A program made the translations under genes and the position numbers. A stretch of 64,000 bases of DNA from Baekduia soli. GTDB lineage: Bacteria; Actinomycetota; Thermoleophilia; Solirubrobacterales; Solirubrobacteraceae. Numbering within the stretch: position 1 is the first letter of the stretch; the number at the start of each line of letters is the position of its first letter. Shown piece by piece: positions 1 to 12,064 of this stretch. The DNA is taken from positions 682,001 to 746,000 of the forward strand of contig NZ_CP042430.1 in assembly GCF_007970665.1 (NCBI RefSeq), read 5' to 3'. The notes beneath the pieces were generated by a model. The model did no database searches, was not told where the DNA came from, and worked only from the letters and a program-made list of their open reading frames with translations.

Positions 1-157
1 CCGTCGGCTGGCGCTCAACGAATGTGAGCGGCGCATCGCACAGGGGCACCGGCTCTCGGCCCTGCGTCTTCTGCTCTCAGGTCTGGTGCGCGATCCGTCA
101 GTGCATGCGCCCGTCGCGCGCGTGCTGGCGTCTCGCCGGCTCCGGAGCGGCGGATGA
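1..157 (+). CDS. C-terminal end of an unidentified protein, probably a glycosyltransferase
   Basis: An open frame enters from the window edge (first full codon at base 2) and ends at TGA 155-157. Only 51 residues are visible, ending ...LASRRLRSGG. They form an Arg/Leu-rich helical tail with the phrase GHRLSALRLLLSGLVRDP, which resembles the helical C-terminal tails seen on family 2 glycosyltransferases. The stop overlaps the next gene's ATG (ATGA), so the two are almost certainly one operon, and the next gene is a glycosyltransferase. The catalytic part is outside the window, so the family assignment is inference only. Confidence 0.6.
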   Translation, partial: RRLALNECERRIAQGHRLSALRLLLSGLVRDPSVHAPVARVLASRRLRSGG

Positions 158-1305
158 GCCACGTCGTCGTCGGCCACGTGGTCAACACCTACGTGACGGT
201 CTCCGAGACGTTCATCCCGGACGCGATCGCCGCGGTGGATGCGCACGGCACCGAGTCCTGGGTCATCTGCGGGCGGAGCGAGAATGAGGACAGGTTCCCT
301 CTTCCCCCGCCGGAGCGACGGATCGTGGCCCCCGTGCCATCGACGGCGCGCCGGATCGTGGATCGCCTCCGGGGCGCCGACCCCCGCCGGCGGTTCGCTG
401 GCAGCGTGCTGGCGGACGCCCGCACGGCCGGCCCCGATCTGCTGCACGCCCACTTCGGATGGTCCGCGCTGTACGCCGCACCGCTGGCGCAGCTCATGGA
501 CATACCGCTCGTCACGACGTTTCATGGCAGCGACGTCACGGTACTGCCGCTCCAGCCCGAGCACCGCGGCGTGTACACCGGCCTCTTCGGCACCATGACG
601 GCGGCCATCGTCGTCTCCCGATACGTGCAGGGCGCGCTCGAGGACCTCGGGTGGGCAGGTCCGACCCACATCGTTCCCGCCGGCGTCGACGTCCGGCGAT
701 TCACGTTCCGCGAGCCGCCGGCCGCGTGTGACGCCCCCCGCGTCGCGTTCGTCGGGCGCCTCGTGGAGCGCAAGGGCGCCGACGTGCTGCTGCGGGCCGC
801 CGCCGGCCTCCGGGCCGACGGGACGCCGGTCGAGGTGCACCTCGTCGGCGATGGGCCCGAGCGCTCGGCGCTGGAGGCTCTGGCCCGCGAACACCGCCTC
901 GAGGAGATCCGGTTCCACGGCGCGCTCGGTCCTGACGGGGTGCGGGACGTCCTGCGAGGTGCCCACCTGATGGTCATGCCCAGCCGGGCGCTGCCTAGCG
1001 GCTCCGGTGAAGGCTCGCCCGTGGTGCTCAAGGAGGCCCTGGCGACGGGCGTGCCCGTCATCGCGACGGACACGGGAGGCACACGCGAGGTGATGCCGCC
1101 GGAATACCGCGACGAGCTGGTGGCCGGCGACGACGTCGCCGGGCTCGCGCACCAGATGCGGGCGGTGCTCCACGACCCGGCCTCGTGGGCTCGACGAGCC
1201 CACGTGGGCCGCGCCTGGGTCGAGCAGGAGTTCGACTGGGGCGTGCTCGGCGCACGCACCGTGGAGCTCTATGCGACCCTCGCCGGCGACGCCGAGCGCC
1301 GCTAG
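154..1305 (+). CDS. Glycosyltransferase family 4 (GT-B fold)
   Basis: A 383-residue retaining GT-B glycosyltransferase that should move a sugar from a nucleotide-sugar donor onto a cell-surface glycan intermediate at the cytoplasmic face. The N-terminal acceptor half contains HAHFGW and TTFHGSDV. The C-terminal donor half starts at VAFVGRLVERKGADVLL and carries HLVGDGPER and the family E-x7-E motif region SGEGSPVVLKEALATGVPVI, followed by TDTGGTREV. Length is normal for GT4. The ATG overlaps the upstream stop by ATGA. The 3' end shares a CTAG tetranucleotide with the convergent gene, so the two stop codons overlap. Donor and acceptor cannot be told from sequence. Confidence 0.88.
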   Translation: MSHVVVGHVVNTYVTVSETFIPDAIAAVDAHGTESWVICGRSENEDRFPLPPPERRIVAPVPSTARRIVDRLRGADPRRRFAGSVLADARTAGPDLLHAHFGWSALYAAPLAQLMDIPLVTTFHGSDVTVLPLQPEHRGVYTGLFGTMTAAIVVSRYVQGALEDLGWAGPTHIVPAGVDVRRFTFREPPAACDAPRVAFVGRLVERKGADVLLRAAAGLRADGTPVEVHLVGDGPERSALEALAREHRLEEIRFHGALGPDGVRDVLRGAHLMVMPSRALPSGSGEGSPVVLKEALATGVPVIATDTGGTREVMPPEYRDELVAGDDVAGLAHQMRAVLHDPASWARRAHVGRAWVEQEFDWGVLGARTVELYATLAGDAERR

Positions 1306-2483
1306 TTGACCACCAGCTCGGCCAGGCGGCGTCCGCAGCTCTCGCGGGAGTACGTCGCGACCGCGGCGGCGCGGGCGGCCGCGCCGAGCTCGGCCCGCCG
1401 GGCGTGCGCCTCCACGATCGCCTCGGCCAGCGCCCCGACGTCCCCCACGCCCACGATCAGCCCGGTGCGGTCGTGCTCGACGACCTCGGCGATGGCCGGG
1501 ATGTCGGACCCGACGACCGAGCATCCGCAGGCCATCGCCTCCAGGAGCGACATGGGCAGCCCCTCGTAGGCCGACGGCAGGGCGAAGACGGCGGCCGAGC
1601 GCATCGCCTCCACGATCACGGAGCGGTCCATGACGAAGCCGTCGAACCGGCAGCGGTCGGCCACGCCGGCCTCCCGCGCGAGCTCGCGCAGCATCTGCTC
1701 GTCGGGTCCGCTCCCCAGGATGCGCAGCGACCACCCGGCGTCCAGGCGGGCCAGCGCGTGGATGAGGTCGGAGATCCGCTTCTGCACGTCCAGCAGGCGC
1801 GCGACGATCACGATCTCCTTGCCCGGCCCCGCCGCCGTGGCCGGCGCCGGGGCGTAGCGGCCGACGTCGACGCCGTTGGGGATCCGGGTCGGGTGACCGC
1901 CGTGCCGACGGACCTTGTCGGCCTCGGCCGAGGTCTGCACGACGATCGCCCGCGCCCGCGGCAGGGTGCGCCGCTTGAACGTCTTGAGTTCGTGGCGGTC
2001 CGGCATCCCCTGGTCGATGCCGATGACCGGCAGGCGCAGTCCGGAGAGGACGTCCCACCGGCCCGTCCAGTACTCCTGGACCATCATGGTGGTGATGCGG
2101 TCCTCGCGGAACCCGCGCCGTAGCTCGGGCAGGATGCTCAGGGCGTTGGCGACCTGGTGGACGTAGCGTCCCGGCGGTGTGCGACGCAGCGATCGCACCC
2201 GCCGCCACGGGGCGTCGACGACGCCGGTCCCCACGAAGCGGATGCCGACCCCCTCCGGCGTGGCCATGACCGCGCTGCCGCGCTCGCTGGGGATGTAGAT
2301 CGTGGCCCTGACGCCCTGGTCGCGCAAGGCATAGGCGTACTCCCAGGACCAGTCGTTGCGATAGGTCTCGACGAACGCCTCCCGCGTCAGCCCGAGGCCG
2401 CGCCCGTAGAACTCCTCGAAGACGTCGGTGCTCAGCAGCAGCGCGACGGCCGGCGAGGCGACCTCAGGGATGCGTGACGACAA
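1302..2483 (-). CDS. Glycosyltransferase family 4 (GT-B fold)
   Basis: A 393-residue GT4 enzyme, distinct from the neighbouring one. The N-terminal half has LLLSTDVFEEFYGRGLG; the donor-binding half has IVIVARLLDVQKRISDLIHAL, LRILGSGPDEQML and the motif stretch PSAYEGLPMSLLEAMACGC with SDIPAIAEVV. The only usable start in frame is a TTG at 2483, 20 bases inside the end of the methyltransferase gene, which indicates translational coupling. It is the last gene of the leftward operon that appears to begin at the lasso precursor (5012). It probably adds one sugar of a surface polysaccharide; the sugar is unknown. Confidence 0.87.
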   Translation of the reverse strand: MSSRIPEVASPAVALLLSTDVFEEFYGRGLGLTREAFVETYRNDWSWEYAYALRDQGVRATIYIPSERGSAVMATPEGVGIRFVGTGVVDAPWRRVRSLRRTPPGRYVHQVANALSILPELRRGFREDRITTMMVQEYWTGRWDVLSGLRLPVIGIDQGMPDRHELKTFKRRTLPRARAIVVQTSAEADKVRRHGGHPTRIPNGVDVGRYAPAPATAAGPGKEIVIVARLLDVQKRISDLIHALARLDAGWSLRILGSGPDEQMLRELAREAGVADRCRFDGFVMDRSVIVEAMRSAAVFALPSAYEGLPMSLLEAMACGCSVVGSDIPAIAEVVEHDRTGLIVGVGDVGALAEAIVEAHARRAELGAAARAAAVATYSRESCGRRLAELVVN

Positions 2484-3198
2484 CGCGGATGCGATTGGCG
2501 AACAGCTCCGGGCGGTGGCGCATCAGCGCAGTGGCCACGGGCCCGGCGGCACGATCGGTCACGCGGTCGCGCAGGAACGGGAGGTCGAGCAGCGGCGTGA
2601 CGCCCCCACCGCTGCGCTCGACGACGCGCAGCCCCACCTGTCGCATCAGACCGGCCAGCGAGTCCAGGGTGAAGAACCGGATGTGGGGGTCGCGCCAGGG
2701 GCGCGTGCCCGACTCCTGGTCGCCCAGCGGAGAGAAGCGCCCCAGCAGGGCGAGGTCGGCCCGGGCGCGCCAGTGCGCCGCGTTGGGCACCTGGATGACG
2801 GCGTGGCCGCCTGGTCGCAGGACGCGCAGGATCTCCGCGGCGGCCTCCTCCGTGCGGAACAGGTGCTCGAAGACCTCGAAGCAGAGCACCAGGTCGAAGG
2901 ACGCGGACGCGAAGGGGAGCACGGCGGCGTCCTCGATGACCCGGGCGTCGAGCCCGAGCGAGCGGGCGCGCTCCACCGCCGCGGCCGAGACGTCGACGCC
3001 GACGTAGGAGCGCGCGTGGGCCTGCATGTAGGGGCCGGCGACCCGGCCGTCGCCGCAGCCGATGTCGAGCACGTCGGTGTCGGCGCCCTTGGACGCGAAC
3101 CGCGCGAAGACCTCGGCCACCGCGTCGCTCTCGCGGCCGACGTACCCGGCTCCGCCCTCCGACCAATACGTGTCGTAGTACTCGGCGGTTGTGGTCAC
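2464..3198 (-). CDS. Class I SAM-dependent methyltransferase
   Basis: A small-molecule or glycan methyltransferase of the Methyltransf_11 type. Motif I is VLDIGCGDGRVAGPY, the acidic residue after strand 2 lies in YVGVDVSAAAVERA, and motif post-II is FDLVLCFEVFEHLF followed by LRPGGHAVIQVPN. I place the start at GTG 3198 (MTTTAEYYDTYW, 244 residues) because a TACGAT hexamer lies 6 bases upstream, the spacing seen at many other starts here. An ATG at 3240 would add 14 residues of poor family character and give 258. It overlaps the downstream GT4 by 20 bases. A role in capping or decorating a surface glycan is inferred from context. Confidence 0.87.
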   Translation of the reverse strand: MTTTAEYYDTYWSEGGAGYVGRESDAVAEVFARFASKGADTDVLDIGCGDGRVAGPYMQAHARSYVGVDVSAAAVERARSLGLDARVIEDAAVLPFASASFDLVLCFEVFEHLFRTEEAAAEILRVLRPGGHAVIQVPNAAHWRARADLALLGRFSPLGDQESGTRPWRDPHIRFFTLDSLAGLMRQVGLRVVERSGGGVTPLLDLPFLRDRVTDRAAGPVATALMRHRPELFANRIRVVVTHP

Positions 3199-3204
3199 AC
3201 GGTC

Positions 3205-3210
3205 ATCGTA
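3205..3210 (-). promoter_or_regulatory. Candidate -10 element TACGAT for the methyltransferase
   Basis: TACGAT (read on the minus strand) ends 6 bases before GTG 3198. This matches the TANNNT-to-start spacing found repeatedly in the window and would give a leaderless mRNA. No convincing -35 is visible. Confidence 0.4.
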
Positions 3211-3261
3211 CTCACGCATCAGCGTCACAAACGGGTCCATCGCGCGTGCCGCGGCGCGCGG

Positions 3262-4314
3262 CTATGTGCACGTCGACGCCAGGGTCCACCCCCGCGTCGC
3301 GACGACCACGCGCGCGTCGGAGGGCGGCGGGCGCAGCACCCGGCCGCGATCCCGTGAGGGAACGACCACGAGGTTCGCGAACGCGTCCGGCGTGCCCATA
3401 CGAAGCTCCCGGAGGCCGGGGCGCCGTGACTGGAGTCCACGATGCTCGCGCGTGGCGCGTCACGCCACACGGCCGCCAGCGCCTGGAGCCGCTCGTTGGG
3501 GACCACGAGCGGCCCACACGGCAGGCGGGACCGGACGACGTGCTCGCCCGCCGCGCGCGTGCGGGCGATCTGGGCCGATGCATCACGGAGGTTCGACAGC
3601 CGCGTGGCCTGGGCGGGAGCGGTCGCGACGACCGCGACCAGCCCGACTGCGGCGACGGCCGGCCAGACGCGAGGGCGTCGCATTCCGATCCAGCCGGCCA
3701 GCCCCGCGCCGGCGAGGACGCACGCCATCGCCTCGAACGGCAGGGCGTATCGCGCGAGGAGCAGCGTGCCGCCGGCGACCGGCAGCAGGAAGGAGACGCC
3801 GAGCGCGGCGACGATCGCCAGCGCCGGCCAGGTACGCCGAGGCGCGGTCAGGACGCCGAACACCGCACCCGTCACCGCCAGCGCGGCCGTCGGCCGACGC
3901 CACCGGCGCGGACCCGGCGACGACCTCCCGGGTCAGGAGCAGGGCGAGGGCGACCACGCCGGCGGCGAGGCCGAACGCCTCGTGGGCGATGGTCAGCGTC
4001 GCCCAGCCGAGCACGCCCGTCGCCAGGTAGCCGATGACCAGCAGGCCGTCCTCGGACCCGGGGCCGAGTGGTGACAGCGCCGCCGCGATGAGGTTGCTGA
4101 GCGGATGCGGGGTGGGACCCGGCGCGTAGTGCGGGAGGTGACCGTGAGCGATCTCCCGCCCCCACACGAGCGAGTGGACCGCGTCGACGTTCACATAGCG
4201 ATCACCGAACGCCGCGAACGCGACAACGCTCACCAACGCGATGATCAGTGCGCTGAGTGCACCAGAGGTGATGCCGCGGCGAGGTGTCCGCGCTGCCATT
4301 GGGCCGGGAGTCAC
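3262..4314 (-). pseudogene. Broken GT-C type (GT39-like) polytopic membrane glycosyltransferase
   Basis: The N-terminal part begins at GTG 4314, directly after the acetyltransferase stop. It reads as a membrane glycosyltransferase: a first TM helix (LSALIIALVSVVAFAAF), then DAVHSLVWGREIAHG and PHPLSNLIAAALSPLGPG, then further TM helices. Near 3900 the frame changes and residues typical of the middle (roughly 150-200 aa) are missing. A second frame continues with TAALAVTGAVFGVLTA and several TM helices. Near 3420 a further single-base shift inside a CCCC run moves to a third frame (PGLRELRMGTPDAFANLVVV) that ends at TAG 3264-3262. The internal loss looks real; the CCCC shift could be a sequencing error. 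Family name is inferred. Confidence 0.7.
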
Positions 4315-4860
4315 TCAGAACTGCTCCGCGGGATCGGCCGTCCGGTCGCGCCGGCCGACGACCCGCGCCGGGATGCCTGCGACGGTCGCGCCCGCGGGGA
4401 CGTCGTCGAGCACGACGGTCATCGCCCCCACCTTCGCGCCGCGGCCGACCCGCACCCCGCCGAGGACCTGGGCATAGGCGCTGAGCACCACGTCGTCCTC
4501 GATGACCGGCGCGCCGTCGCGGTGCTCGCGCACGCCGAGGGTCACGCCGTGGCCCATCGTCACGTTGGCCCCCATGCGGGAGGCCGGGTGGATGATGATC
4601 CCGCCGAAGTGGAAGATCCGCAGGCCCGGGCCGATCTCGGCCGACTTGGGGATGCTGATCCCGGTCAGCAGCGAGACCGCGAGGTGCAGCGCCCCGTAGA
4701 CGGGGAAGAGCGCCAGCCGGACCGGTCGCGGCAGCTCCAGGGTGAAGCGCCCGAGGCGGTAGACGGCGATGGCCCACAGGGCCGGCTCGGTCAGCAGCTC
4801 ACGCGGCGCGTAGCGCCGTACGTCGGCCCGGAGCGCGACGAGGGCGCTCGTGCCGCTCAG
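4315..4860 (-). CDS. Serine O-acetyltransferase-like hexapeptide-repeat acyltransferase, CTG start
   Basis: Left-handed beta-helix acetyltransferase of the CysE / glycan O-acetyltransferase type, about 181 residues. The helical N-terminal domain (LRADVRRYAPRELLTEPALW) and the SIPKSAEIGPGLRIFHFGG transition are followed by hexapeptide coils (GANVTMGHGVTLG, VVLSAYAQVLGGVRVG) and the AGIPARVVG exit. Homology clearly begins well upstream of the first ATG (4575), which would cut the protein in half. No ATG, GTG or TTG exists in frame before the lasso precursor's own frame. The only sensible start is CTG 4860, overlapping the precursor stop (CTGA) with GGGG five bases upstream. It could O-acetylate a surface glycan or, more speculatively, the lasso product. 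Confidence 0.75.
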   Translation of the reverse strand: MSGTSALVALRADVRRYAPRELLTEPALWAIAVYRLGRFTLELPRPVRLALFPVYGALHLAVSLLTGISIPKSAEIGPGLRIFHFGGIIIHPASRMGANVTMGHGVTLGVREHRDGAPVIEDDVVLSAYAQVLGGVRVGRGAKVGAMTVVLDDVPAGATVAGIPARVVGRRDRTADPAEQF

Positions 4861-5012
4861 ATGCTCCCCAGCGTGGGGTTGCCCTTGAACAGGACGCCGT
4901 CGCTCGGCGCCGTGAAGTCCTTGTTGGAGGCCAGCGTCAGGTCGTGCAGGTCACCGATGATCGTCACGGTCGGCGCCTCGTAGACGCGCTGCGCGGCGGG
5001 GGTGTTCTCCAT
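4857..5012 (-). CDS. Lasso-peptide-type RiPP precursor peptide
   Basis: A 51-residue peptide starting at ATG 5012. The leader carries the recognition pattern bound by B1 proteins: Tyr11-x-x-Pro14 (YEAPTVTII), Gly20, then DLHDLT with Leu25-Thr26. In known lasso precursors a Thr at position -2 marks the cleavage site, which would place the core at Ala28 to Ile51. That core has Asp at core positions 5 and 11 but none at 7, 8 or 9, where the ring acceptor normally lies; cleavage before Asn30 would put Asp38 at position 9. The 3' part is SDGVLFKGNPTLGSI. The genes for B1, B2 and the cyclase lie nearby in divergent arrangement. The stop overlaps the CTG of the acetyltransferase. The antisense reading frame of the kinase gene was excluded here. 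Confidence 0.85.
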   Translation of the reverse strand: MENTPAAQRVYEAPTVTIIGDLHDLTLASNKDFTAPSDGVLFKGNPTLGSI

Positions 5013-5019
5013 ATCGCTG

Positions 5020-5048
5020 AGGGTAGGCGGTGGTGTCGGGCGTGGCAA
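5020..5048 (-). promoter_or_regulatory. Promoter of the lasso precursor operon (leaderless)
   Basis: On the minus strand a -35 TTGCCA (5048-5043) and a -10 TACCCT (5025-5020) are separated by exactly 17 bases. The -10 ends 7 bases before ATG 5012, so transcription should begin at or within a base or two of the A of the start codon. Confidence 0.6.
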
Positions 5049-5060
5049 GCTGCGTCGGCT

Positions 5061-5942
5061 TTGCACGATCTGTCCCACCAAAGCGCCACGGGGGCTTACG
5101 GACTGCGGCTGCACCTGGCCGCCCATGACGATCTGCTGGGCCCAGCGCCGACCTCCTGGCCGCGCTGGCAGGTCACCCAGCGGACCGGACCATCGCCCGC
5201 AGGGCGCTCGCGCCTCACCGACGACGAGGCCTGCCTGGTGCTGGACTCCGGCGGGGTGATCGCCCTCGACCGGCGCGAGGCCACGGCCGTCTACATGCTG
5301 CCGCACCCCGTCGGCGCCGATGCGCTCGTGCATCCCTACCTCGTCCCGGCGGCGGCCGTCGCGGCGCACTGGCGCGGCGACGTCTGCTTCCACGCCGGGG
5401 GGTTCGTCCTCGACGGTCGCGCGTGGGGCGTGCTGGCCCCCAAGGACGGCGGGAAGACCACGCTGCTGGCCGGCCTGGCTGGCCGCGGGGTGCCCGTCCT
5501 GGCCGACGACGCGCTCGTGCTGCGCGCCGCCGACACCGCCCTGGCGGGCCCCCGTTGCCTCGATCTGCGGAAGGGTGCGGCCGAGCGCTTCGCGGGCGCC
5601 ACGCCGCTGGGCATGATCGGCGACCGGGAGCGCTGGCGCCTGGCGCTGGCCCCCGCACCGGCCGAGACGCCGTTCGCGGGCTGGGTCGCGCTCGGGTGGG
5701 GGGATGGCCCGCCGCGGACCGAGCCGGTCGCGCTGGCCGGGCGCCTGCGGGCGCTGACGGCATCGCTGACCCTCAGGACCCCGCCTCGGCATCCGCAGGC
5801 GCTGCTCGACGCCGCCACGCCGGCCATGGTGCGCCTGACGCGCGAGGCGGACTGGTCAGCGCTGGAGCCCGGGCTCGACGTCCTGCTCGACGCGCTGCGC
5901 GCCGCCGGCCGCCAGCCAGGCGGTCTGCAGCAGGGCGAATGA
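5061..5942 (+). CDS. HprK-related serine kinase-like protein of the lasso cluster
   Basis: A 293-residue protein (if TTG 5061 is the start) related to the HPr kinase-like enzymes found in paeninodin-type lasso clusters, where the kinase phosphorylates a Ser of the precursor. The P-loop region is GVLAPKDGGKTTLLAGL (about residues 122-138), with Ala in place of the usual first Gly, followed by the Walker-B-like VPVLADDALVL. It is transcribed away from the precursor; the two starts are only 48 bases apart. An in-frame GTG at 4944 would run antisense through the precursor and is unlikely. The last 87 bases overlap the cyclase gene tail to tail. Substrate is inferred; the precursor offers Ser29, Ser37 and Ser50. 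Confidence 0.75.
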   Translation: MHDLSHQSATGAYGLRLHLAAHDDLLGPAPTSWPRWQVTQRTGPSPAGRSRLTDDEACLVLDSGGVIALDRREATAVYMLPHPVGADALVHPYLVPAAAVAAHWRGDVCFHAGGFVLDGRAWGVLAPKDGGKTTLLAGLAGRGVPVLADDALVLRAADTALAGPRCLDLRKGAAERFAGATPLGMIGDRERWRLALAPAPAETPFAGWVALGWGDGPPRTEPVALAGRLRALTASLTLRTPPRHPQALLDAATPAMVRLTREADWSALEPGLDVLLDALRAAGRQPGGLQQGE

Positions 5943-7043
5943 GTGCGGGTCGGGGTCGTCCTTGCGCCACTCGGCCGCCAGGGCGTCGAGGTCGACGCGG
6001 TCGTCCTCGATGCCCGTGCCCGGCCAGGACGCTCCGAACGCCCGGGCCCGCGGACCCCAGATCGCCGCATTGAACGAGGCCTTGCTCGTGCGCCGCAGGC
6101 AGCCGTCCGGCAGCAGGTCGCCCACCAGGCCGGACAGGCCCGCCACCCGGCCGGGCACCCCGCCGCGCGGCGTGCCCCCGGCGTAGGCGGCGAGCGTCCG
6201 CGCGTCGGAGAACGGGTGGCGCACCAGGACCCCGGCATCGCGTCCCAGGAGGTCCAGCGCGGCGATCGTGCACTGCAGGCGGCGGCTGGGCCACCACCAT
6301 CTCGTCAGCGCGCGCGGCCACGACAAGGGCTCTGCGGCCAGCCAGCTGGCGTAGGCCTCCGCGAGCTCCCGCACGCCCTCCGGTCGCAACCACGGGAAGG
6401 CGAACGGCAGCGTGCGGCGACCGCGCCGGGCGCGCAGCGCCGCGGGCAGCGCCTCCCCTGCGGTCGCGCGCCACTGTCCCGGCTCCGGCCGGCGCCGCGC
6501 GAACAGCAGCCGCGCCAGCCGCGCGCGCTCGACCCCCGCGAACAGCTCGTCGCCCCCGGCGCCGGTGAGCATGGTGCCGCCGGCGGCCTGCGCCACCACC
6601 GGGCTGTGGAAGTGCACGTTGAACAGCGGCGGCACGCCGTGGCGGCGCAGGAGCGCGGTCGCGTGGCCGCCGAGCATGTCGAGCTCGCCGCCGAGCTCCA
6701 GCCGGATCCAGTCCTCGAGCCCCAGATGGGCGACGACGCGCTCCTGCCAGTCGTTCTCGTGGGATGCCGGAACCGCGGGGAATCGATTGGACACCGGGAT
6801 CGGCGCGGGCAGGCCCTCCCGCCGCGCGACATGCGCCGCGACGGCCAGCACCGCGCTCGAGTCCCGTCCACCTGAGAAGCTGACCGTGCACGGCGGGCGG
6901 CGCAGCGCCTCCAGCACGACGTCCTCGAACGCGGCGCGCGGCTCCTGCGCGGCCGGGCGCAGCGGCGCGGTCGCCGCGTCGTGGCCGAACGGGACCGACC
7001 ACAGCAGCTCCAGGGGCCGCGGCGCCAGCCGCCCGAGCGTCAT
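5856..7043 (-). CDS. Lasso macrolactam synthetase (Asn-synthetase-like, C protein), short form
   Basis: A 395-residue ATP-pyrophosphatase that in lasso clusters adenylates the acceptor Asp/Glu and closes the macrolactam. The PP-loop is VSFSGGRDSSAVL (SGGRDSS at about residues 57-63); a second hallmark is TGAGGDELFAG. Characterised lasso C proteins are roughly 550-620 residues with an N-terminal glutaminase-like domain. Here only about 50 residues precede the PP-loop, so that domain is absent. The ATG overlaps the B2 stop (ATGA). The 3' end overlaps the convergent kinase gene by 87 bases. Without the rest of the cluster it would be called an asparagine synthase-like protein. Confidence 0.85.
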   Translation of the reverse strand: MTLGRLAPRPLELLWSVPFGHDAATAPLRPAAQEPRAAFEDVVLEALRRPPCTVSFSGGRDSSAVLAVAAHVARREGLPAPIPVSNRFPAVPASHENDWQERVVAHLGLEDWIRLELGGELDMLGGHATALLRRHGVPPLFNVHFHSPVVAQAAGGTMLTGAGGDELFAGVERARLARLLFARRRPEPGQWRATAGEALPAALRARRGRRTLPFAFPWLRPEGVRELAEAYASWLAAEPLSWPRALTRWWWPSRRLQCTIAALDLLGRDAGVLVRHPFSDARTLAAYAGGTPRGGVPGRVAGLSGLVGDLLPDGCLRRTSKASFNAAIWGPRARAFGASWPGTGIEDDRVDLDALAAEWRKDDPDPHSFALLQTAWLAAGGAQRVEQDVEPGLQR

Positions 7044-7420
7044 CCTGGCGGGATGCGCGTCAGCACCGTGAAGCGCTCCTGCTCGGGCGCGACGTCGTGG
7101 CCGACGACCCAGGCGTGCGCCCGGAACGTCCCCTCCGAGCCGCGCACGCCGATCGCCACGTCATGGGTGCGGCCCGCCCCGGCCAGCAGGCGCTGAACGA
7201 TGAGCGACCGCTCCAGGCACGTCGCGCGCCCGGCGCGCAGGACCCCGGCGACCGACCAGCGCCCGGGCCGGGTCAGCGCCGCGGGCGGGCAAGGCGGCAC
7301 CGCGGCCTCGAGCCCCATGCGCTTCAGATCGCGCCGCAGGCACCGCAGCGACCGCCAGGCCCAGACGGTGCCGGCGGGCACGCCATGCCACGCCGCCGCA
7401 CGGCGCAGCCCCGGCCTCAT
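7040..7420 (-). CDS. Lasso leader peptidase B2 (transglutaminase-like)
   Basis: A 126-residue B2 protein, which removes the leader peptide from the precursor. Visible catalytic triad candidates are Cys68 in ATCLERSLIVQRLL, His102 in FRAHAWVV and Asp109 in VVGHDVA, in the order and spacing expected of the transglutaminase-like B2 family. Length is typical for split B2 proteins. It sits between B1 and the cyclase with ATGA overlaps at both ends, forming a three-gene operon B1-B2-C read leftwards from 7698. Confidence 0.88.
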   Translation of the reverse strand: MRPGLRRAAAWHGVPAGTVWAWRSLRCLRRDLKRMGLEAAVPPCPPAALTRPGRWSVAGVLRAGRATCLERSLIVQRLLAGAGRTHDVAIGVRGSEGTFRAHAWVVGHDVAPEQERFTVLTRIPPG

Positions 7421-7698
7421 GCCCCCTGCTCCACCAGGTCGAGGGCCACGAGCCGCTCCACGAAGCCCTGCACATCGGTGACGGCCCGTGCGCGATCAAC
7501 GTCGTAGGCCGAGCACAGCACGTCGGCCATGGCGGGCAGCGTGGTGCCCTGCACGATGAGGGGCCACAGCTCGGTCGCGCTGCCGCCGAGGCCCACGTAG
7601 TTCCAGGTCGAGGAGTCCAGGACGACGATCTGGCCGTCGACCTCGCGCCATGGGACGTCGCCCGAGCGCAGGCGGATCACGGATGGATCGTCGGACAT
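7417..7698 (-). CDS. Lasso leader-binding RRE protein B1 (PqqD-like)
   Basis: A 93-residue stand-alone RiPP recognition element. It has the PqqD-like winged-helix pattern: three N-terminal beta strands (SVIRLRSGDVPWREV, GQIVVLDSSTWNYVGL) then helices (SATELWPLIV, TVTDVQGFVERLVALDLVE-like end). In lasso clusters B1 binds the leader through the Tyr-x-x-Pro segment and delivers it to B2. It is the first gene of the B1-B2-C operon, with a -10-like TAGTAT 15 bases upstream of its ATG. Confidence 0.87.
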   Translation of the reverse strand: MSDDPSVIRLRSGDVPWREVDGQIVVLDSSTWNYVGLGGSATELWPLIVQGTTLPAMADVLCSAYDVDRARAVTDVQGFVERLVALDLVEQGA

Positions 7699-7713
7699 CG
7701 GTCGCGAGCAGTG

Positions 7714-7723
7714 ATACTACGGT
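7714..7723. promoter_or_regulatory. Overlapping divergent -10 elements between B1 and the nucleotidyltransferase gene
   Basis: TAGTAT on the minus strand (7719-7714) lies 15 bases from the B1 ATG. TACGGT on the plus strand (7718-7723) overlaps it and faces the nucleotidyltransferase gene. No clear -35 is seen for either. Confidence 0.4.
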
Positions 7724-7762
7724 CATGTTCGCCCGGCAAGCCTGCGGTCGCCGGCCCTGCTC

Positions 7763-8968
7763 TTGACGAGGGAGCGCCGAGCGGTCAGCGGCGACGAGCC
7801 CGCCCATCGGCTCCTGCGCCTTCTCTGCAGCACGCAGGAGCGCCGCGCCGCGCGCGCCGAGGAGGCCGGCCGACTGGCCGCCGTGGTCGACGCGCCGACG
7901 CTTGCCGCGCTCGCCGCGCGCCAGCGCCTGCTGGGCATCGTCCCTGGCCGGTTGCGGGAGGCCGGCCTCGGCGCGCCGGCGGCCGAGCTCGAGGCGCTGC
8001 TCGGCGACGTGCCCCGCCACGAGCGCGCCGAGGGCGGACGGCTGCAGCTCATCACGCTCGGCCTGCTGCTCGAGCTCGAGCGCCACGGGATCGCGGCGCT
8101 GGCCCTCAAAGGCCCGCTGCTGGGCGAGGCGCTCTACGGGGACGCCGGCGCGCGGCCGTCCAGCGACGTCGACCTCCTCGTCGGCCGCGACGACCTGGCG
8201 CGGGCGGTCGACGTCGTGCGGGCGCACGCCTACCGCGCGCCCGAGGATCCGCCAGGCCCCGACGGCCTGCCACCGCTGCACTGGTGCCTGCGGCCCGCCG
8301 CCGGCTCGGCGCCCAACGTCGAGCTGCACTGGCGCGTGCACTGGCACGAGACGACCTTCTCGCCCCAGCTGCTGGCGCACGCGCTCCCCGATCCCGCCTG
8401 GGGGCGCCGCGCGCCGGTGCAGTGGGAGCTCGCCACGCTGCTCCTGATCTACGCGCGCGACGGGTTCGCCGGGCTGCGCATGGCCTGCGACCTCGCGACG
8501 CTGGCCGACAGCGACCGGGCGCGGGCCCTCCCCGACGGCGCGATCGCGTCCGTCGTCGACCGCGTCCCCGAGCTGGCCGGGACCCTGGCGGCCGCGGCGC
8601 TGACCGCGGAGCGGATCGTCGGCATGCCCGCCGCGCCGTGGACCCGGCGCCGCCCCCGCCCGGCGCCGCTGGTCACGCGGCTGGCCGACTGGCGCCTGCT
8701 CGGCGACACGGTGCAGCTGCACGCCGAGCAGCGGCTTGTCGACGTCCTGGTCGCACCCAGGCACCAGCGTGGTGCGGCGCTGCGCCATCAGCTCTTCCCG
8801 AGCCTCGAGGAGCTGCGCTGGATGATCGGCGACGCAGCGCCGGGCCCGATCCGCCGCCGCCATCAGCTCGCGCACGCGCCGAGCACGCTGCTGCGCTGGA
8901 TGGCGCCGCTGCGTCGCGGCGCCCGCGTCAGTACTCCACGAGCGTCCCGTTCCGCCGGCAGCTCCTGA
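7763..8968 (+). CDS. Nucleotidyltransferase-family protein of the lasso/glycan cluster
   Basis: A 401-residue protein of the NTP_transf_5 type. The polymerase-beta-like core shows GIAALALKGPLLGEALYG, where the Lys aligns with the family, followed by the acidic pair in RPSSDVDLLV (SDVD). Later segments VELHWRVHWHE and LLLIYARDGFAGLRMACDL are typical of the family. Such proteins recur in lasso clusters and in exopolysaccharide clusters; nucleotidylation of the peptide or a partner is possible but unproven. The start is uncertain: TTG 7763 is the first conventional codon, with CTG 7742 and 7757 upstream in frame. The 3' end overlaps the convergent permease by 41 bases. Confidence 0.78.
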   Translation: MTRERRAVSGDEPAHRLLRLLCSTQERRAARAEEAGRLAAVVDAPTLAALAARQRLLGIVPGRLREAGLGAPAAELEALLGDVPRHERAEGGRLQLITLGLLLELERHGIAALALKGPLLGEALYGDAGARPSSDVDLLVGRDDLARAVDVVRAHAYRAPEDPPGPDGLPPLHWCLRPAAGSAPNVELHWRVHWHETTFSPQLLAHALPDPAWGRRAPVQWELATLLLIYARDGFAGLRMACDLATLADSDRARALPDGAIASVVDRVPELAGTLAAAALTAERIVGMPAAPWTRRRPRPAPLVTRLADWRLLGDTVQLHAEQRLVDVLVAPRHQRGAALRHQLFPSLEELRWMIGDAAPGPIRRRHQLAHAPSTLLRWMAPLRRGARVSTPRASRSAGSS

Positions 8969-9731
8969 TCGCCATGCCGACCGCGGCGCCGGCCAGCGGC
9001 AGCCCGACGATCGCGAAGCCCACCATCTTGGCCAGCGACACCCAGGTGCTCTCCGTCAGCGGCAGGCCGAGCAGCAGGTGGCGCAGCAGCTCGACGGCGG
9101 GCGTGAACGGCTGCACCTCGGAGGCCCAGCGGATCCAGCCCGGCAGCAGGCTCGTCGGGAAGTACAGCCCGGCCGACAGCGAGACCAACGCGATGATGTA
9201 GCTGGCTCCCGGCGCCTGCTTGAACCGCAGCATCACGGCGCTCATGAGCAGCGTCAGCGGCGCGAAGGACAGCGCCCCCAGCAGCCCCACGGGGATCGCC
9301 AGCGCGACCGTCGCCCAGTGCAGCCGCACGCCGAAGATGACGACCGCGAGCGCCAGCGTGACGGCCGACATGATCGAGGCCAGCGCGAAGGGGAAGATCA
9401 TCAGGCTCGCGACGCTGGCGGTGGGCCCGAAGGGCGACAGGGCCATCCGCTCGAACGTTCCGGCCACGAGCTCCTGGCGCAGCTGCATCGGGCTCTCCAG
9501 CGTGGACTGCAGCACCTGGAGGATCACGAGGCCGACGACGACGAAGCCGAAGTACTCCTTCGGGGAGTGGAACGGCTCCACCCGCACGAGCTTCGACACG
9601 TAGTAGAACAGCGCGAGCGTGAAGACCGTGCCGACGCTCTGGGTCACCAGCCGCCCGCGGTAGCTCGTGTAGATCAGCGCATCGCGGCGGATGAGCGCCA
9701 CCGTCGCGGCGAGGCGGGGCGGGAGGCTCAC
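8928..9731 (-). CDS. ABC-2 type transporter permease
   Basis: A 267-residue polytopic membrane protein with about six TM segments, of the ABC-2 / Wzm type used to export polysaccharides, peptides or drugs. Visible features include the amphipathic N-terminus (LAATVALIRRDALIYTSYRG), TM segments such as FGFVVVGLVILQVL and the conserved FKQAPGASYIIALVSLSAGLY region. Its GTG overlaps the ATPase stop (GTGA), so subunit pairing is clear. It ends inside the 3' end of the convergent nucleotidyltransferase gene. It may export the lasso product or a glycan; classical lasso exporters are fused ABC proteins instead. Confidence 0.82.
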   Translation of the reverse strand: MSLPPRLAATVALIRRDALIYTSYRGRLVTQSVGTVFTLALFYYVSKLVRVEPFHSPKEYFGFVVVGLVILQVLQSTLESPMQLRQELVAGTFERMALSPFGPTASVASLMIFPFALASIMSAVTLALAVVIFGVRLHWATVALAIPVGLLGALSFAPLTLLMSAVMLRFKQAPGASYIIALVSLSAGLYFPTSLLPGWIRWASEVQPFTPAVELLRHLLLGLPLTESTWVSLAKMVGFAIVGLPLAGAAVGMAIRSCRRNGTLVEY

Positions 9732-10450
9732 CGCGGCTCCAGCCGGCCGCCGGCCAGCACGAGCGTCGCGTCGAAGTCCACCGACGCGCGGTCGTCGCCC
9801 GGCGAGATCCACAGGCACGCGCCGCCGACCTGCGCGGTGCGGGCGATCGCCGCGGCCAGCAGGTCGGCCGCCGCGTCGTCGAGCGAGTTCATGGGCTCGT
9901 CGAGCAGCGTCAGCCGCGGCTCGTGCAGGAACGCCATCGCCACGCGCAGCCGCTGGCGCTGACCCATCGACATGCGGTCGGTGCGCGCACCCTCGAGGTC
10001 GTGCAGCGCGAAGTCGGCCATCGACCGCTCGACGGCCGCGCGGCGCCGCGCGGCCGGCAGCAGGGCCAGGCGCGACCACAGGTCGAGGTGCTGGCGGACC
10101 GTCAGCCGCGCGTAGAGCCCCCGGTCGCCGGCCGACAGGAACCCGACGCGCCGCTGCACGGCCTCGCGGTCGCGGACCGGGTCGTGGCCCTCGACGCGGA
10201 CGGTGCCCGCCTCGGGCAGCACGAGCCCGGCGATCACCCGGATCAGCGTGGTCTTGCCCGCGCCGTTGGCGCCGACGATCCGCGTGCGCGAGCCCGCGCG
10301 CACCGTGAGCGACACGGCGTCGAGCACCGGGCGCTCGAGCCGCGGCCACCGCTTCGTCAAGCCCTCGACGACCAGGATCTCGGCATCGTCGCGGGCGGCC
10401 CCGCGCGGACCCGGCAGCGGGTCGGGCGACTGCTCGCGGATGGCCGGCAT
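9728..10450 (-). CDS. ABC transporter ATP-binding protein
   Basis: A 240-residue ABC ATPase partnered with the downstream permease. Walker A is IVGANGAGKTTLIRVI, the signature is a variant RMSMGQRQRLRVAMAF, and Walker B is PRLTLLDEPMNSLDD. The H-loop position reads LWISPGDDRAS, with no obvious switch His, which is unusual and could impair or alter hydrolysis. It starts at ATG 10450; TAAGCT lies 11 bases upstream as a possible -10. Cargo is probably the lasso peptide or a surface glycan. Confidence 0.82.
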   Translation of the reverse strand: MPAIREQSPDPLPGPRGAARDDAEILVVEGLTKRWPRLERPVLDAVSLTVRAGSRTRIVGANGAGKTTLIRVIAGLVLPEAGTVRVEGHDPVRDREAVQRRVGFLSAGDRGLYARLTVRQHLDLWSRLALLPAARRRAAVERSMADFALHDLEGARTDRMSMGQRQRLRVAMAFLHEPRLTLLDEPMNSLDDAAADLLAAAIARTAQVGGACLWISPGDDRASVDFDATLVLAGGRLEPR

Positions 10451-10501: not shown

Positions 10502-12064
10502 CTACAGCCCGCGACGGGCCAACATGTAGGGCACGGTCCGCGCCAGGATCTTGAAGTCCTGGAACAGGCTCCACGTCGTCACGTACAGGTAGTCGATCTT
10601 GACCATCTCGTGCATCGGCACGCGCGAGGAGCCCATGATCTGCCAGTGACCCGTCATGCCCGGCGTCAGGTGCAGCCGCCGCCGGTCATAGCCCGTGATG
10701 ACCTTGTCCTCGCTGCGGATGAGCGGCCGCGGCCCGACGAGCGACATCTCGCCGCGCAGCACGTTGATGAGCTGGGGCAGCTCGTCCAGCGAGGACTGGC
10801 GCAGCCGGCGGCCCATGCGGGTGATCCGCGGGTCGTCGGCGATCTTGAACAGCCCGTCGGCCTCGTTGTGGGCCATGAGATCGTCCTTGCGCTGCTCGGC
10901 GTCGGTGACCATCGAGCGGAACTTGAAGATGCGGAAGAGGTGGCCGTCGCGACCGATGCGCTCCTGGCGGAAGAAGACCGGCCCGCGCGAGTCGAGCTTG
11001 ATGAGCGCTGCGATGACGGCGAACAGGGGCGCGAGGAACACGAGGCCCACGAGCGCGCCGACCACGTCGAACGCGCGCTTGACCAGGCGCGAGGAGCGCG
11101 ACAGCGCGAACTCGCGCACACCGAGCAGGGTCATGCCGCCCAGGTCGTCACAGACCACCGTGTTGCCCACGACGTCGAAGACGTGCGGGACGATGCTCAC
11201 CCGGACGCCGAGCGCCTTGGCCGCGCGGATGAGGTCGACGGTGACCTGCGGGTTGGTCTGGCTCGGCACGACGAGCACGCGGTGGGCGTCGAGCTGGTGG
11301 ATGAGGTGCCCGAAGGTGTCCTGGTCGACCGGGCGCTCCTCCGAGGAGAAGTCCGACACGCGCTGCAGCGACATGCGGCCCACGAGCTTGGCGTGGATGC
11401 CGGCCATCTCGAGCTTGTGCTGGACGCGCCCGTAGGTGACCGCGTCGCCGACGAGCAGCAGCCGCTCCTCGGCCACGCCCCGCGAGGCCACGGCGCGGGC
11501 GACCCAGCGGAAGCCGAGGCCGAAGGCCAGCAGCGTGGCCCACAGGACCAAGGCCTGGGACTTGCCCAGGGTGCCGTTGATGACGATGCCGTCGACCATC
11601 CACACGGCCATCGTGTAGAGCGTGGCCAGCTCGAGCATCGCCGGGGCCTCTTCCAACGTCGTCTTGTGGACGAGCAGCTCGTCGCGGTCGTACAGACCGC
11701 TGAGCTTGGAGGCCAGGATCACCAGCGGCAGGCCGACCAGGACGGTGACGCTGAGGTGGTCGTCGCCCAGCAGGTCGACGCAGACGACCAGGGCGACGAG
11801 GGCGGAGAGCGCGTCGGCGGTGGCGAGCCACAGCCGGTAGTGGCGATCGCGATGCGCCACGGCGGCGTTCGGCCGGGGCGCCTCTTCGATGGGTCGGGGA
11901 AGCGGCCGGAGGCCGGTGATGCGACGCAGGGTCACCGTGCGCCGACGTCGGACGTCGGGCACGCGAAGATCAACTCGCGAGGAAATCGTTCTGCCGTTCG
12001 TTTGCGCTTGGACGTGCCGTGTTGCGCCTCCTGGAGCTTCGGTCACACCGGCCCCCTCGGCCAC
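10502..12064 (-). CDS. Polyprenyl-phosphate sugar phosphotransferase (initiating glycosyltransferase)
   Basis: A 520-residue enzyme that should start exopolysaccharide repeat-unit synthesis by transferring a sugar-phosphate to undecaprenyl phosphate at the membrane. The N-terminal half has four hydrophobic segments (such as LSALVALVVCVDLL) and a nucleotide-fold middle. The C-terminal catalytic domain has a TM segment (VVGALVGLVFLAPLFAVIAAL), then IKLDSRGPVFFRQERIG, FKFRSMVTDAE, SLDELPQLINVLRGEMSLVG and GLTPGMTG-type HLTPGMTGHWQI. The start at GTG 12064 is uncertain; GTG codons about 30-40 residues further in are also possible. It confirms that the surrounding cluster makes a surface polysaccharide. 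Confidence 0.9.
   Translation of the reverse strand: MAEGAGVTEAPGGATRHVQAQTNGRTISSRVDLRVPDVRRRRTVTLRRITGLRPLPRPIEEAPRPNAAVAHRDRHYRLWLATADALSALVALVVCVDLLGDDHLSVTVLVGLPLVILASKLSGLYDRDELLVHKTTLEEAPAMLELATLYTMAVWMVDGIVINGTLGKSQALVLWATLLAFGLGFRWVARAVASRGVAEERLLLVGDAVTYGRVQHKLEMAGIHAKLVGRMSLQRVSDFSSEERPVDQDTFGHLIHQLDAHRVLVVPSQTNPQVTVDLIRAAKALGVRVSIVPHVFDVVGNTVVCDDLGGMTLLGVREFALSRSSRLVKRAFDVVGALVGLVFLAPLFAVIAALIKLDSRGPVFFRQERIGRDGHLFRIFKFRSMVTDAEQRKDDLMAHNEADGLFKIADDPRITRMGRRLRQSSLDELPQLINVLRGEMSLVGPRPLIRSEDKVITGYDRRRLHLTPGMTGHWQIMGSSRVPMHEMVKIDYLYVTTWSLFQDFKILARTVPYMLARRGL

Follow-up and report, generated by a model that had tools for sequence, protein, structure and literature searches.

A lasso-type peptide cassette with a short cyclase and a candidate Lys-Asp ring in a surface-glycan locus of Baekduia soli

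What does a lasso-type cassette make when its precursor lacks the residue on which this family normally closes its ring, and why does the cassette lie among genes for a surface polysaccharide? These questions are raised by a 64,000-nt stretch of the 5.2-Mb genome of Baekduia soli (assembly GCF_007970665.1, contig NZ_CP042430.1, positions 682,001-746,000), hereafter the window, whose positions serve as coordinates throughout. At 4857-10450 it holds genes for a precursor (A), an HprK-like kinase (K), a short asparagine-synthetase-like cyclase (C), a leader peptidase (B2), its partner B1, a nucleotidyltransferase (N), and an ABC-2 exporter pair. These genes almost certainly form a cassette for a ribosomally synthesized and post-translationally modified peptide (RiPP) of lasso type. 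We see even chances that it makes a phosphorylated lasso-family peptide with a ring between Lys4 and Asp11, exported together with the surface glycan.

The leader of A ends in YEAPTVTIIGDLHDLTL and is followed by the predicted core ASNKDFTAPSDGVLFKGNPTLGSI, in which Lys4, Asp11, and the penultimate Ser23 stand out. A lasso peptide is defined by a ring of 7-9 residues running from the N-terminal amine to an Asp or Glu (PMC8498205). Numbered by the rule that places Thr at -2, with the cut after LT-Leu, the core has Asp at positions 5 and 11 and neither Asp nor Glu at 7-9. Therefore, a canonical ring is impossible for this core and, assuming that cut, the core falls outside the lasso definition, so that we call the product lasso-family or lasso-like rather than a lasso peptide. 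At the gene level, the features of a lasso cluster are all found: a YxxP leader with Thr at -2, split B1 and B2, and an AsnB-like cyclase. What sets the locus apart is its short cyclase together with the absent ring acceptor, both of which the initial annotation overlooked.

To place this core, we compared it with those of relatives, collected with a precursor search pattern that required Thr or Ile at -2. The precursors fall into classes, namely canonical, Lys-Asp, and mixed. Canonical cores have Asp9 in 59/66 cases and Ala or Gly at position 1 in 54/66, the latter being found in only 5/21 Lys-Asp cores. Among 118 unique cores, searched for Lys up to core position 10 only, 28 carry a Lys followed by an Asp at a distance of six (shuffle mean 2.9, maximum 9 in 2000 shuffles), and spacings 3-5 and 8-11 occur in one to three cores each. 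Since this pattern was first seen in the same data, new genomes were drawn as a hold-out. A phylum-wide sample gave a short cyclase in only 3 of 396 genomes, two of them already known; owing to this low yield, the hold-out loci were taken from family and order searches round other centres (21 loci, of which L237, L245, L248, and L249 duplicate earlier ones). Spacing 6 appears in 6 of the 21 hold-out cores (shuffle mean 0.95), a count never reached in 5000 shuffles. Over all 131 cores, with Lys allowed at every position, it appears in 37 (shuffle mean 6.4, maximum 13 of 300). Eight of the 118 cores, seven very short ones from L141 and one shadow open reading frame (ORF) in L170, had been dropped before this search and the composition counts.

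The spacing-6 loops contain Gly in 34/37 cores, mostly as KxxGxxD. Among the 131 cores, Arg-Asp at this distance occurs twice (4.7 expected) and Lys-Glu three times (1.7 expected). Anything between 0 and 17 residues can precede the Lys at a fixed Lys-Asp spacing, so that the pair, and not its distance to the N-terminus, seems to be what is selected. Ten of the 131 cores fit neither class. We found no description of the Lys-Asp core class in the open full-text literature, including searches on Lys-closed rings; subscription papers lay mostly outside this search, which makes it weak evidence of absence.

Some loci show other arrangements. Very short cores (TIVVLAQGETS and kin in L239, L244, and L246, together with seven of 10-13 aa in L141) have an acceptor at 7-9 and hardly any tail that could be threaded. 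L055, L057, L064, and L070 combine long cyclases with precursors ending in HTF and cores with TDKFGE[YF]S or alike (LDKFCEYS in L057), which have no Asp or Glu at 7-9 and perhaps form another ring type. L156, L157, L161, L171, and L172 have two short cyclases per locus and a precursor pair, GQSxGxRLDADF.. and ANLFG..D or alike. One Acidimicrobiaceae metagenome-assembled genome (G908; L195, L207, and L211-L216) has eight short-cyclase matches with diverse cores.

Which amine would close the ring? We lean towards a Lys-Asp ring rather than an N-terminal one, with the Lys side chain as nucleophile. The side chain is favored by the retained Thr(-2), itself favored by the search pattern, by the variable spacer, and by the presence of B2 in 29/30 genomes (21 of these over the cut-off). 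A different way to use the same Lys would be a hidden N-terminus: the core would be trimmed to the Lys, whose alpha-amine would then join the Asp to form a ring of 7 or 8 residues. Both ring sizes lie within the known 7-9 range (review), and the core of L059 begins with the Lys. However, with Thr (or Ile, as the pattern required) kept at -2 beside a spacer of 0-17 residues, a cut by B2 at fixed distance cannot always precede the Lys. Moreover, no trimming peptidase is found among the eight annotated extra proteins of L102, L131, and L101 (one ORF of L101), which comprise LuxR regulators, a weak methyltransferase match, an ABC protein, an N gene, and a dehydratase, two being without any family. 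In addition, a ring through an alpha-amine would not depend on a Lys side chain, yet Arg occurs here less often than chance predicts, as counted above. We consider such trimming unlikely.

Alternatively, the N-terminal amine of Ala1 could attack Asp11 itself, giving an enlarged ring of 11 residues, with the Lys serving only as a recognition residue for the cyclase. The N-terminal amine is the usual nucleophile of this cyclase family, and a 10-residue ring has been obtained in vitro with the fusilassin enzymes (review). With the Asp of relatives at positions 7-24, however, an enlarged ring would require the ring size to vary at a fixed Lys-Asp spacing, while lasso enzymes tolerate changes of ring size poorly (review), and the Ala/Gly bias at position 1 is lost in Lys-Asp cores. 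We regard this possibility as still more improbable than trimming.

The cyclases themselves speak to the Lys-Asp ring as well, in that the core classes track the cyclase tree. With 18 Lys-Asp and 53 canonical rows, the tree requires four class changes, compared with 16-18 in the first five of 200 label shuffles; when mixed rows are counted as Lys-Asp (29 rows), seven changes are required. The classes also differ in the loop TG(E)GGDE. In our alignment A5, the Glu is present in 12/13 rows with canonical cores and in 0/20 Lys-Asp or mixed rows, where Phe, Ile, Ala, Val, or Asn precedes GGDE (Ala162 in the window); L104, L117, and L152 were set aside as unclear, and L104 and L152 have the Glu. 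A pattern read-out over all cyclases gives Glu in 31/34 readable canonical rows (28 more unreadable) and another residue in 17/20 readable Lys-Asp rows (3 unreadable) and 11/16 readable mixed rows. This Glu would be the equivalent of Glu348 of AsnB and Tyr348 of beta-lactam synthetase, which aid the amine nucleophile. In a bolder and rather unlikely reading, a glutaminase-less cyclase clade of Actinomycetota closes a macrolactam between Lys side chain and Asp at spacing six (seven with Pro), giving phosphorylated two-tailed lariats that would be parts or tailoring agents of the polysaccharide often encoded next to them. Separately, an in-frame TAG is present in the top cyclase match from the same family (G018; L008, 10948-12198), and no B2 was recognized by profile at this locus.

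The pair Lys4-Asp11 has spacing 7 and represents a Pro-containing variant. L100, the best match of our scan of species genomes and from a different genome, has KAVSPPSD, likewise at spacing 7. Loops of spacing 7 contain Pro in 7/9 cases compared with 3/37 at spacing 6 (P = 7e-5, for a pattern noticed post hoc). We assign the window precursor to the Lys-Asp class because of its cyclase clade, Ala162, the arrangement in L100, and this Pro pattern. It might instead be a decaying copy that has lost its acceptor, in a cluster that makes nothing. Its core indeed lacks Asp and Glu at 7-9 and ends in Ser-Ile rather than Ser, the full C-terminus being Gly-Ser-Ile, and no clear ribosome site was seen by eye upstream of A. 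Yet B2, K, N, and C retain those active-site residues that were examined, and L100 shares the arrangement of Lys and Asp at seven, which makes decay very unlikely in our estimate.

Several observations speak against the Lys-Asp ring, and they concern the window in particular. Its spacing is 7, which by itself shows no enrichment: the counts are 6 against a shuffle mean of 2.9 (118 cores), 10 against 6.3 (131 cores), and 2 in the hold-out (P = 0.22). Its class placement leans on a post hoc pattern, on the cyclase, and on L100, and L243, a spacing-7 core without Pro, goes with a loop Glu. Among relatives, 16 of the 37 spacing-6 cores also carry Asp or Glu at 7-9 and could close a canonical ring, and four of the six spacing-6 cores of the hold-out come from one family, that of Blastococcus. 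The loop Glu is kept in 3/20 readable Lys-Asp rows (L104, L137, and L174) and 5/16 readable mixed rows; these three loci may not truly belong to the class, as their cyclases sit among canonical ones and a spacing-7 reading of their cores is also possible. The loop residue, like the core class, tracks phylogeny, leaving few independent events, and the fusilassin ring shows that rings beyond nine residues can be made in vitro. Finally, the peptide itself is a prediction from its genes.

How the cassette would make such a product depends on its enzymes, which are listed here with their neighbors (the 2-kb blocks of this DNA have about 66-79% G+C).

4857..5012, minus strand: precursor A, 51 aa; NCBIfam lasso_leader_L3, 22.4 bits (cut-off 19)
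4944..5942 (open frame), plus strand: HprK-like kinase K; start uncertain, likely past 5012
5856..7043, minus strand: short Asn-synthetase-like cyclase C, 395 aa; Asn_synthase, 53.1 bits; loop TGAGGDE (Ala162)
7040..7420, minus strand: leader peptidase B2; lasso_biosyn_B2, 46.3 bits (cut-off 33)
7417..7698, minus strand: B1, PqqD-like RiPP recognition element (RRE) protein; PqqD, 48.9 bits
7763..8968, plus strand: nucleotidyltransferase N; PF14907, 90.7 bits; start uncertain
8928..9734, minus strand: ABC-2 exporter permease (family search)
9728..10450, minus strand: ABC exporter ATPase (family search)
10502..12064, minus strand: polyprenyl-phosphate sugar phosphotransferase of WbaP/exopolysaccharide (EPS) type, glycan locus (family search)
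4315..4860, minus strand: O-acetyltransferase of serine-acetyltransferase/EpsC type, adjoining the end of A; glycan locus
2464..3240, minus strand: methyltransferase, glycan locus (family search)
1302..2483, minus strand: GT4 glycosyltransferase (family search)
154..1305, plus strand: GT4 glycosyltransferase (family search)

K and N thus lie on the plus strand, and A, C, B2, B1, and the exporter pair on the minus strand. Family profiles, translations, and the kinase alignment bear out every gene that the initial annotation had named, that is, A, B1, B2, C, K, N, the ABC-2 exporter, and the glycan neighbors.

The catalytic residues Cys68, His102, and Asp109 of B2 are seen in its translation. 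K has no Pfam match and reaches only 19 bits with HprK_rel_A (cut-off 200). In a family alignment of 37 rows, the window included, His125, Gly145, Lys146, Asp163, and Asp164 are invariant, and the family profile matches the HPr kinase 1jb1 (E = 1.3e-5) amid many similarly scoring P-loop ABC proteins. The motif His-Lys-Asp-Asp of the paeninodin-type lasso kinases (PMC9266682) is present as His125, Lys146, Asp163, and Asp164; as judged from these alignments, K is a divergent HprK-like kinase. N carries the PF14907 match that gives the cluster a nucleotidyltransferase gene of the pseudomycoidin kind, and its Asp135 and Asp137 are invariant in 18 rows, the window included. Its model is of moderate confidence (predicted local distance difference test score, pLDDT, 75.6) and resembles the minimal nucleotidyltransferase (MNT) fold, with MenT1 as the sole structural match at E < 0.001 (3.5e-4), followed by ANT(2'')-Ia and, at a lower level, the glycan-modifying enzyme FKRP; a sequence search gave no solved relative of N.

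C lacks the N-terminal glutaminase-like domain that the long cyclases of our survey possess. Its model (mean pLDDT 91.8) matches the Asn-synthetase superfamily, the top Foldseek matches being TsnB9, carbapenam synthetase, beta-lactam synthetase, and ASNS (template modeling scores by query of 0.36-0.51), and its active-site motifs, the PP-loop SGGRDSS and GGDE, are intact. C therefore resembles the asparagine synthetase B/beta-lactam synthetase fold in its structural matches and its PP-loop, and differs from it in the missing glutaminase domain and in the loop Glu, which is lost in most of the Lys-Asp group.

Given these residues and families, the peptide would most likely be phosphorylated first, then freed of its leader, closed into a ring, decorated at the phosphate, and finally exported, each step past the identity of the genes being inferred. 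By analogy with its family, B1 would bind the YxxP leader and present A. K, with its His-Lys-Asp-Asp residues present, would phosphorylate the penultimate Ser23; Ser is the last or penultimate residue in 93/110 cores, in keeping with phosphorylation by K of the kind known from paeninodin. B2, with its catalytic residues in place, would cut after LT-Leu. C would activate Asp11 with ATP and close the ring onto Lys4, most likely through its side-chain amine, unlike known lasso cyclases. The spacing statistics of relatives and the lost loop Glu suggest such a ring at Lys4, which would leave a short N-terminal Ala-Ser-Asn tail. By analogy with PsmN, N may decorate the phosphate with a group derived from a nucleotide or a sugar. 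The ABC-2 pair would then export the product where and when the surface polysaccharide is made, and, given the conserved co-location, the product would act there with or on the glycan.

Why, then, is the cassette found where it is? It is embedded in a large polysaccharide locus, with the WbaP-type gene on one side and the EpsC-like acetyltransferase, the methyltransferase, and two GT4 genes on the other. The window begins within this locus, which continues upstream to about 667 kb of the contig with WecG (two copies), GT4, GmhA and HddA (heptose genes), GT2, Wzz, O-antigen-ligase-like, and Wzx genes, names that were read from translations without a family search. The acetyltransferase next to A is not favored as a lasso tailoring gene: its strong matches are confined to the window and to the upstream part of this locus, with weaker ones in 4/79 loci of the species scan and 3/21 of the hold-out. 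Its frame has no ATG, GTG, or TTG start at its beginning, its sole ATG being at 4575. At 3225-4314 (minus strand), two overlapping ORFs in different frames stand where a single membrane-protein gene is expected, possibly a broken gene.

We found that this setting recurs among relatives. In a survey of the class, the B2 family was found in 50/399 genomes at 52 places, and up to 20 kb round each were mapped with local profiles; together with L008, found via its cyclase, this gives 53 loci, with K in 46, N in 28, and a glycan-type gene in 37. In 36 of these loci (17 of the 52 B2 places lacked a genome density and were left out, and L008 was added), GT4 genes occur in 23 loci where the density of each genome predicts 4.8 (P = 1e-12) and WbaP-type genes in 6 where it predicts 0.76 (P = 9e-5); the loci are related to each other, so that these and the following P value overstate their independence. 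Seven short cyclases, used as queries against 84,980 species genomes, gave 137 matches, of which the best 80 (79 loci), nearly all from Actinomycetota, were kept. In 34 of these loci, which lie on longer contigs and have a genome density, a WbaP-type gene occurs within the fetched stretch in 11, with 0.27 expected (P = 1e-15). Among 48 loci of at least 20 kb, our profiles recognize glycan-type genes in 38, and more than one such gene in 26; K is present in 46, N in 40, and an ABC ATPase in 42. The hold-out has a glycan-type gene in 12/17 new loci, and nine control stretches from two genomes gave a GT2-type match in two and GT4 in none. Altogether, the co-location of lasso and glycan genes is not chance, in line with the initial reading of the locus as a lasso-type cassette with kinase and nucleotidyltransferase set in a glycan locus.

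A functional tie of the cassette to the surface glycan is probable in our view. The same co-location might arise without one if an antibiotic island tended to land in a variable glycan locus. The distribution is patchy, as such mobility would predict: a convincing short cyclase occurs in 3/61 genomes, that of the window included, with two more passing E = 1e-3 weakly, and in one of the seven genomes of the genus. Moreover, glycan genes are absent by profile from 10/48 loci of at least 20 kb and from 16/53 loci of the class survey (ten on stretches of less than 14 kb and six with about 20 kb), which counts against the tie. The initial annotation had asked for a survey of neighboring genomes and took lasso genes without glycan genes as evidence to the contrary; such loci do exist, although the enrichment of WbaP-type genes stands. 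What speaks against shared mobility is that the association recurs in Thermoleophilia, Acidimicrobiia, Geodermatophilaceae, Jiangella, Nocardioides, and others, and that Bacilli show it too, with synchronous up-regulation of lasso, lpp, and an EPS gene in one strain (PMC13381572). We therefore hold mobility alone to be doubtful. A plasmid origin was rejected, the cyclase being unmatched in 72,556 plasmid records. The boldest form of the tie, a covalent attachment of the peptide to the glycan, seems unlikely.

A set of 16 loci from one family (L058, L063, L065, L067-L069, L073-L076, L078, L081, L083, L084, L086, and L087) has K (except L063, on a short contig), B1, and B2, many beside GT4 or GT2 genes, with no cyclase by profile and no recognizable YxxP precursor. 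We considered them as possible linear analogues and rejected this idea, since no precursor was found and the small ORFs conserved among them resemble shadow frames of larger genes.

If the Lys-Asp ring is correct, an enzyme family that makes N-terminal rings would perform side-chain to side-chain stapling without an ATP-grasp enzyme, offering a new way to stable peptides in which the position of the ring is freed from the N-terminus. In addition, the association with glycan genes, published for Bacilli and found here in Actinomycetota, makes the purpose of kinase-tailored lasso-family peptides directly testable.

How does this cassette compare with known systems? The initial annotation knew of no characterized cluster of this make-up, a statement overtaken by the published clusters of Bradymonas (bsf), of pseudomycoidin, and of Bacilli capsule loci. 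The paeninodin cluster has K, and that of pseudomycoidin contains K together with N, its peptide bearing hexoses at the phosphorylated Ser (PMC9266682, PMC10368454). These systems (PadeK, ThcoK, PsmK, and PsmN; PMC9266682) share with the window the lasso genes, the HprK-like His-Lys-Asp-Asp kinase, the nucleotidyltransferase in the case of pseudomycoidin, and a Ser at or beside the C-terminus; the window differs in its glutaminase-less cyclase, its penultimate Ser, the lack of an acceptor at 7-9, and its actinobacterial origin. The bsf cluster consists of BsfA, B1, B2, C, D, K, and N, the same seven functions as in the window cassette, but has a Gly1-Asp8 ring and phosphorylation at Ser3 (PMC10368454).

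In Bacilli, capsular polysaccharide loci contain both paeninodin-like clusters and cyclase-less clusters for linear polyphosphorylated peptides (LPPs); the 2026 paper that describes both kinds gives their function as unknown (PMC13381572). Like the window, these clusters place an RRE, an HprK-like kinase, an NTP transferase, and a transporter within polysaccharide loci; they differ in being from Bacillota, in that the LPP clusters have a SipW-like peptidase and no cyclase, and in that the lasso members are paeninodin-like. The window cassette was rejected as an LPP cluster, given that it has a cyclase and B2 and a leader different from YxxPxVLxHQxIxFETxxS (no profile search was made for a SipW-like gene). 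A Lys side-chain amine in an isopeptide bond, as proposed here, is known from lariocidin B, a class V lasso peptide, where Lys2 is joined to the C-terminal carboxyl as an extra bond besides an ordinary N-terminal ring (PMC12427821). The make-up of the cluster is thus already known, and what this analysis adds is the extension of the co-location to Actinomycetota and the Lys-Asp core class.

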